Assembly: GCA_029262055.1 (NCBI GenBank)
Contig: JAJDAD010000017.1
Location: forward strand, 1-37,132
DNA: 37,132 nucleotides
Direction of reading: 5' to 3'
Source of the DNA: Candidatus Zhuqueibacterota bacterium
GTDB taxonomy: Bacteria; Zhuqueibacterota; Zhuqueibacteria; Oceanimicrobiales; Oceanimicrobiaceae
Made by a program: the position numbers and the translations under genes
In this document: positions 36,511 through 37,132 of the stretch, one piece after another
Layout: the number at the start of each line of letters is the position of its first letter
Numbering within the stretch: the first letter of the stretch is position 1
The notes under the pieces: generated by a model
The model's database searches: none
Seen by the model: only the letters and a program-made list of their open reading frames with translations
Told to the model about the DNA's origin: nothing

Positions 36511-36617
36511 AATAAGTCATTAGTAGTTTTGTATAGTATGAAAACTCTGCTGCCTAGTTATGGACTGCATTTCTCCCTTGACTTCCTCCTTCTGATGAAC
36601 TGTTTTGGGTATCTAAA

Positions 36618-36721
36618 TCCCCTCCAAACGCGCAACGCGCGCGGAGGGACAGGTTCAAATCGCGCTCAGCGTTTTGAACCGGGGTGGGTACGCCTTCCTC
36701 CGCTGGTCACGCACCCACCCC
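36618..36721. repeat. Three-hairpin repeat element
   Basis: Three consecutive stems fill about 104 bases: CCCTCC (36620-36625) with GGAGGG (36643-36648); GGTTCAAA (36652-36659) with TTTGAACC (36673-36680); and GGGGTGGGT (36681-36689) with ACCCACCCC (36713-36721). All arms are perfect. The layout looks like a dispersed palindromic intergenic repeat or a miniature element. No second copy was noticed in this window, so repeat status is inferred from structure. Confidence 0.6.
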
Positions 36722-37132
36722 TGATTAGAAACTTAAGTGTACTCACAATTGCTTTGCTGGCCGCCTGCGGCGAACCTGTCGACCTTGCGCGGGAAACAGA
36801 AAAACTCCTGCAAACGGATCGCGATTTTTCGAAGAGTTCGCAAGAGATTGGCGCACCCGATGCCTTTTACCGTTACATGATCGATGATGCTCTTCAGCTT
36901 CCGCACGGGGGCAATCCCGTCATCGGACGCGATAGCATCCGAGCGCAAATGTCGGACGGACCGGAAGTGCAGCTCACCTGGACGCCGGAAGAAGCCGAGG
37001 TCGCTCTGCAGGGAGATCTTGGCTACACCTGGGGAAACTACCTGGCAACCTGGAAAGACGCCGAGGGAATCACACAGAAAGGGCGTGGGAAATATCTTAA
37101 CATCTGGAAGAAACAAGCCGATGGCGAGTGGA
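36721..37132 (+). CDS. DUF4440/SnoaL-like lipoprotein, partial, start codon unclear
   Basis: An open frame continuing off the window. From 36721 it reads LIRNLSVLTIALLAAC, a lipoprotein signal with the lipobox Cys at 36766-36768, then an NTF2-like body: DAFYRYMIDDALQLPHGGNPVIGRDSI, a PEVQLTWTPEEAEVA strand and a GYTWGNYLATWKD strand. This matches DUF4440/SnoaL-like proteins of unknown ligand. No ATG, GTG or TTG stands at the expected signal start; the codon there is CTG, the end of the hairpin repeat. In-frame ATGs at 36538 and 36595 would put repeat-encoded residues ahead of the signal. The frame is open back to the EamA stop. The gene may be altered by the repeat. Confidence 0.7.
   Translation, partial: MIRNLSVLTIALLAACGEPVDLARETEKLLQTDRDFSKSSQEIGAPDAFYRYMIDDALQLPHGGNPVIGRDSIRAQMSDGPEVQLTWTPEEAEVALQGDLGYTWGNYLATWKDAEGITQKGRGKYLNIWKKQADGEW

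Follow-up and report, generated by a model that had tools for sequence, protein, structure and literature searches.

Hairpin Element Upstream of the Lipoprotein Gene

What is the array of hairpins that stands in front of a lipoprotein gene, where the start codon of this gene should be, and what has it done to the gene? The window, which is the whole stretch of 37,132 nucleotides that was analysed, is contig C23 of the 5.74-Mb draft genome (114 contigs) of a Candidatus Zhuqueibacterota bacterium. In our judgement, the locus is likely to be a truncated copy of a miniature element, MITE-A, whose REP-like hairpin units are tied to DUF559 nuclease genes, and in which a deletion would have beheaded the lipoprotein gene.

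As shown in Table 1, the three tandem stems of the original prediction were present. Positions 36600-36735, folded as single-stranded DNA, gave z-scores of -4.3 on the plus strand and -5.9 on the minus strand, far better than shuffled sequences (0/200 as good). The reading frame was also open throughout the element, as had been claimed, and ran from 36529 into the lipoprotein gene, with in-frame ATG codons at 36538 and 36595. The predicted extent of the element was correct for the end of the last arm, at 36721, but the element starts at 36565 and its homology to other copies ends at 36726. In hairpin 3, the tag of the A unit pairs with that of a lost B unit. A search of Rfam with the hairpin element gave no match up to E = 5. 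By eye, GGTTCAAATC resembles a T-arm; this tRNA-like reading was rejected because the bases sit in the covarying stem of the unit.

Table 1. Positions of the hairpin element, its parts and the adjoining gene in the window.
Feature	Position	Strand	Description and evidence
Truncated MITE-A copy	36565..36726	+	Element positions 1-165; 94% identity to the full-length consensus over query 5-165 (blastn)
Degenerate left terminal inverted repeat	36565..36580	+	CTGCATTTCTCCCTTG (consensus CTNACATTTCTCACTT); alignment with intact copies
Complete REP-like double-hairpin A unit	36618..36689	-	ACCCACCCC tag, stem-loop, CCCTCC/GGAGGG hairpin; covariance model R1, E = 2.2e-10
Hairpin 1	36620..36648	.	CCCTCC 36620-36625/GGAGGG 36643-36648; fold
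Hairpin 2	36652..36680	.	GGTTCAAA 36652-36659/TTTGAACC 36673-36680; covarying stem of the unit
Hairpin 3	36681..36721	.	GGGGTGGGT 36681-36689/ACCCACCCC 36713-36721
B-unit remnant	36713..36726	+	Tag ACCCACCCC and TGATT, B hairpins deleted; copy comparison
Deletion junction, element/lipoprotein gene	36725..36726	.	TT microhomology; comparison with L024 paralogue
Lipoprotein gene, DUF4440 domain, original start absent	36727..37132	+	Pfam DUF4440, E = 2.6e-11
Possible extended ORF through the element	36538..37132	+	ATG 36538 or ATG 36595; ORF list and translation

Structure and Distribution of MITE-A

Comparison of the copies showed that a complete MITE-A is about 270 bp long and runs from CTRACATTTCTCACTT through hairpins 1 and 2, the central hairpin 3, a hairpin-2-like stem and a hairpin-1-like stem to AAGTGAGAAATGTYAG. 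Its ends are 16-bp terminal inverted repeats (CTNACATTTCTCACTT/AAGTGAGAAATGTNAG), and its body consists of two inverted (head-to-head) copies of one double-hairpin unit, with five hairpins in all. The window copy keeps the left 60% of MITE-A; the right ~105 bp, with two hairpins and the right terminal repeat, are missing. At the B-unit remnant, intact copies read CCCCTGATTCAAACTC..., and the window reads CCCCTGATTAGAAAC.

Copy numbers of MITE-A and of the unit were taken from blastn and covariance-model searches. The element proved to be a dispersed repeat, as the original prediction had supposed: blastn of the genome with positions 36600-36800 gave 27 places, one of them the lipoprotein paralogue, and about 30 loci were recovered with the full-length consensus as the query. 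About a dozen copies were complete or nearly so, and the rest were truncated or internally deleted. MITE-A was also present in the same-family genomes G004 and G005. The 16-bp end pattern, with up to two mismatches, occurred 74 times in the genome, compared with 12 times for the reversed control pattern. When the 7 bp immediately outside the two ends were compared in 35 bracketed family elements, they matched at 3.86 of 7 positions, compared with 3.09 of 7 in shuffled pairs (z = 4.9), and exact 7-bp target duplications were seen (TTACTGA at L002, TGATTCA at L045, and TAAATAA). Most complete copies were intergenic and overlapped no ORF of at least 100 amino acids, and the 270-bp element carried no conserved ORF across its about 30 loci.

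Terminal inverted repeats, target duplications and dispersed non-coding copies were thus all found, and MITE-A is a new MITE family. The 16-bp terminal inverted repeats together with the ~7-bp duplications suggest that MITE-A would most likely be moved in trans by a transposase of the cut-and-paste (DDE) type. No autonomous transposase with MITE-A ends was found at the end sites examined in this genome and the draft genomes of the family; between or beside the terminal repeats there were just MITEs, single ends and one decayed GxxExxY fragment. MITE-A is similar to the bacterial MITEs NEMIS/Correia, RUP, Nezha and ERIC in that it is short, non-autonomous, intergenic and hairpin-forming, has terminal inverted repeats and target duplications, and occurs in copies by the tens. 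It differs from them in its new end sequence with no parental transposase found, in a body made of two REP-like units, and in ends that bracket several unrelated palindromic bodies within the family.

A second MITE of ~215 bp was found in the same genome, having only the 16-bp ends in common with MITE-A and carrying a different palindrome (GTCATTCTGAGCGC...GAAGAATCTTCG). It was located at C16:33599, C38:11967, C93:50154, C104:6005 and C31:83957 (L107, L110, L122, L124 and L344). In six of seven same-family genomes (G001 and G003-G007), MITE-A ends bracketed MITEs that measured 125-450 bp and had five or more mutually unrelated bodies (L256, L257, L260, L261, L262, L267, L278, L350, L355 and L357). 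Several of these bodies were similar to palindromes that lie next to genes for nucleases or RAYTs. A single pair of ends carries many payloads.

Loss of the Start of the Lipoprotein Gene

The lipoprotein gene continues on contig C25, the first 141 bp of which it shares, and was 91% identical to a paralogue at the end of contig C22 (L024). At its start the C22 paralogue reads GAGGAGGGAAAATGAACGCCTTGGTTAGAAACTC, and the window reads CACCCACCCCTGATTAGAAACTT there (the matching sequence is also given as ACCCACCCCTGATTAGAAACTT). The paralogue carries a strong GAGGAGG ribosome-binding site, an ATG and first codons that are missing in the window, in agreement with the earlier suggestion that the start codon might have been destroyed. 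From this comparison, the element has lost its right ~105 bp, and the gene its ribosome-binding site, ATG and first codons. The proposal that the repeat ends exactly at the start codon was not supported; complete copies continue for ~105 bp, so the coincidence with the start codon marks a deletion junction and not the end of the element. In the window, the deletion has linked the middle of MITE-A to a point near codon 5 of the DUF4440 lipoprotein gene, which is a duplicated one, and alignment with the paralogue shows that the start codon and ribosome-binding site were removed by it.

No ATG, GTG or TTG was left in the window gene at a position from which a normal signal peptide would result. 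An N-terminal extension, also foreseen in the original prediction, could be obtained from the in-frame ATG at 36595 or 36538, adding about 43 or 62 residues, respectively, ahead of the signal peptide, but neither codon had an evident ribosome-binding site. The window copy is probably silent, or would yield a mis-sorted, N-terminally extended protein. If the gene were expressed normally, with CTG or ATT at the junction serving as a non-standard start, the junction would be neutral or adaptive. The downstream frame is intact, and translation of CTG ATT AGA AAC... would yield MIRNLSVLTIALLAAC, which would serve well as a lipoprotein signal; a ribosome-binding site is missing ahead of it, however, whereas the paralogue has its strong GAGGAGG, and we regard expression of this kind as unlikely.

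The junction could also have been produced by the assembly, with two repeats meeting near a contig end. Contigs C23, C22 and C25 have a 141-bp assembly branch in common, and the paralogues form a mosaic: 27 of the first 56 codons differ between the window and C22 (14 synonymously, 13 not), compared with 1 of the next 78. Such an artefact is very unlikely, as the junction at 36726 lies ~265 bp inside C23, ahead of the common 141 bp, and the sequence just past it, differing from C22 at 27/56 codons, was not copied from the C22 read path. The window copy is an example of the way in which a gene can be beheaded by a small mobile repeat.

The mosaic of paralogues, where three contigs meet (window 36890-37132, C22:22700-22941 and C25:1-141), may reflect recent gene conversion or assembly collapse. 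An inverted repeat, GTCATCCTGGAAGGATCTTTTTTGG...AAAAAGGATTCCTCCTGAATGAC, was seen upstream of the intact C22 paralogue (L024, 1320-1400), and similar sequences were seen near other copies, e.g., L005 and L123.

Conservation of the Double-Hairpin Unit

The unit consists of the ACCCACCCC tag, a covarying stem with a CTNNACG or CTNCG loop, and then a CCCCTCC/GGAGGGG hairpin. Among units from this genome and its relatives, 55 cells were changed on both sides of the stems, the figure for shuffles being 17.2 (0/500). Pairing was kept in 84% of cells, compared with at most 57% when the partners were slid. The loop was kept in 26/27 units, while 23% would be expected in shuffled sequence. Stems that stay paired and a loop that stays fixed while the stem sequence drifts suggest a ligand that would read the shape, the loop and the foot sequences.

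The unit covariance model gave 49 matches in this genome, 45 in G012, 24 in G004 and 18 in G002, and 15 of the 63 genomes of the class had any match. Units were also found in MITEs of G012 whose ends are unrelated to those of MITE-A (terminal inverted repeat CCTGGTTATCCAGTTAACTCAGC, and a second repeated family), which supports the capture of units by MITEs, as judged from the sequences. The presence of units inside MITEs shows that the units are carried there; it is not a sign that DUF559 moves them.

Two further repeat families in G012 carry DUF559-type hairpins. The first has CCTGGTTATCCAGTTAACTCAGC ends, apparent ~9-bp duplications and 10 copies (C6, C8, C10, C12, C21 and C3; L318-L327), and the second has 8 near-identical copies (C1, C3, C10, C11 and C14; L328-L335).

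Association of DUF559 Genes with the Units

DUF559 is a common protein family of unknown function. This genome has a single full-length DUF559 gene (C33:8554-8961), which is enclosed by two direct repeats that are 93% identical over 155 bp; each of these repeats is an inverted pair of units. The repeats on C33 are spaced by 549 bp, and an integron attC reading of them was rejected because the spacing equals one DUF559 gene between direct repeats.

Two 450-bp flanks were compared at each of 52 DUF559 loci from many phyla and at 189 control sites on the same contigs. A repeat common to both flanks was found at 33/52 DUF559 loci and at 8/189 control sites (p = 7e-20, kinship ignored), and GGGGTGGG occurred in the flanks of 14/52 and 4/189, respectively. 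DUF559 flanks in Brocadiaceae, Nitrospirota, Bacteroidota and KSB1 followed the same tag-hairpin plan, the extra stem being absent in many of them; these units resemble those of this genome but lack MITE ends. DUF559 was present in 12 of the 15 unit-bearing genomes of the class, compared with 13 of the 48 others (p = 5e-4, kinship ignored), and no DUF559 gene was detected in the unit-bearing genomes G005, G042 and G050. At L157 (G004:C74), a DUF559 gene lies in direct repeats of the same tag-stem-hairpin plan with a wholly different sequence (ACCACCCCCGACTTCG..., CCCCCGCCAGCGGGGGA).

The DUF559 protein of this genome matched PF04480 (E = 3.6e-30), and the most similar protein segment among named genomes was from a candidate division KSB1 bacterium (77% identity over 77 residues). 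Residues E27, D56, E67, D69 and H73 were invariant, and include the acidic residues expected of an active site (putatively catalytic). The closest solved folds to the predicted model (pLDDT 85) were NGO0050 (3hrl) and the homing endonuclease I-Bth0305I (3r3p). By its Pfam match, conserved residues and predicted fold, DUF559 has the features of a Vsr/homing-endonuclease-like nuclease; one DUF559 protein has been called Vsr-like (PMC12907096). The likeness to the Vsr-like/EDxHD homing endonucleases such as I-Bth0305I lies in the predicted fold, while the DUF559 gene differs from I-Bth0305I-type genes in having no intron or intein and in being placed between palindromic repeats. No report of a link between DUF559 and repeats was found among the open-access papers of PubMed Central.

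Comparison with REP Systems

The association of repeat and nuclease resembles the REPtron, in which REP/BIME/REPIN sequences occur with RAYT (PMC3733652), a homing-endonuclease-like nuclease taking the part of the HUH transposase. Both have tagged dispersed palindromes in inverted pairs and a small DNA-enzyme gene flanked by cognate repeats. The units differ from the GTAG REPs of the REPtron (PMC3733652) in their tag (ACCCACCCC/GGGGTGGGT) and in having two stems each, and the flanked gene encodes a DUF559 PD-(D/E)XK-type nuclease, not an HUH tyrosine transposase. The hairpins might nevertheless be classical REPs spread by RAYT (Y1/HUH transposase), with DUF559 incidental. Sixteen Y1_Tnp matches in this genome and the alternating inverted, BIME/REPIN-like layout would suit this origin, but no GTAG-type foot tag was found in the units, and the ten RAYT loci examined in the genome have other palindromes, with one stray GGGGTGGG and a unit in none of them. 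As these RAYT genes adjoin other palindromes, RAYT was rejected as the partner of the unit, and we consider spread by RAYT quite unlikely. At L216 (G000:C69:61215), a RAYT-type Y1 transposase gene was seen between ~310-bp direct repeats (87% identity) with several hairpins inside.

The CGTC REPs have a CGTC/TGTC/CCTC tag, an 8-9 bp stem starting with AT pairs and a CCA tail; they are mostly inverted dimers, and a dedicated transposase is not known for them (PMC3733652). The units resemble them in forming inverted dimers and, in many cases, in having CGTC or TGTC just before hairpin 1, but the unit stem starts with CC instead of AT, there is no CCA tail, and an extra stem and the ACCCACCCC tag are present.

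Possible Role of DUF559

Units of the same anatomy stand beside DUF559 genes here and in other phyla, which suggests that the DUF559 nuclease is the likely ligand of the unit, with single-stranded or cruciform hairpins as its substrate. It would cut or nick the hairpins and so spread or maintain them, as RAYT supposedly does for REPs. The full reading is put forward tentatively, at somewhat short of an even chance: tagged double-hairpin repeats would form a large superfamily with DUF559 as its dedicated partner, which would recognise palindromes in their folded state and cause them to be copied or maintained, and DDE-type MITEs would have captured such hairpins repeatedly. We also regard it as quite possible, if on balance improbable, that DUF559 genes and palindromes only share mobile or low-constraint regions, the palindromes being structured RNAs, or transcription terminators that serve adjacent genes, on which DUF559 does not act. 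An association is not a function, MITEs with other palindromes have these terminal repeats at their ends too, and covariation suits RNA as well as DNA structure. However, both strands fold, Rfam gave no match, bracketing by repeats on both sides is far commoner at DUF559 genes than at control sites of the same contigs, and the same tag-hairpin plan recurs in several phyla.

The strong tie between DUF559 and a recognisable palindromic repeat in many phyla gives this family a testable substrate. DUF559 also becomes a candidate enzyme type for palindromic repeats without a dedicated transposase according to PMC3733652, such as the CGTC REPs; if DUF559 is indeed the partner of the units, this would suggest which enzymes to try where palindromic repeats seem to have none. 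The pairing of small nucleases with repeats of their own may be general.

Genes for GxxExxY (PDDEXK_3) proteins are very common in the class, and their flanks shared repeats in 12/30 loci (E < 1e-5; L288-L317). A decayed GxxExxY copy adjoins a MITE end at L283 (G001:C167).
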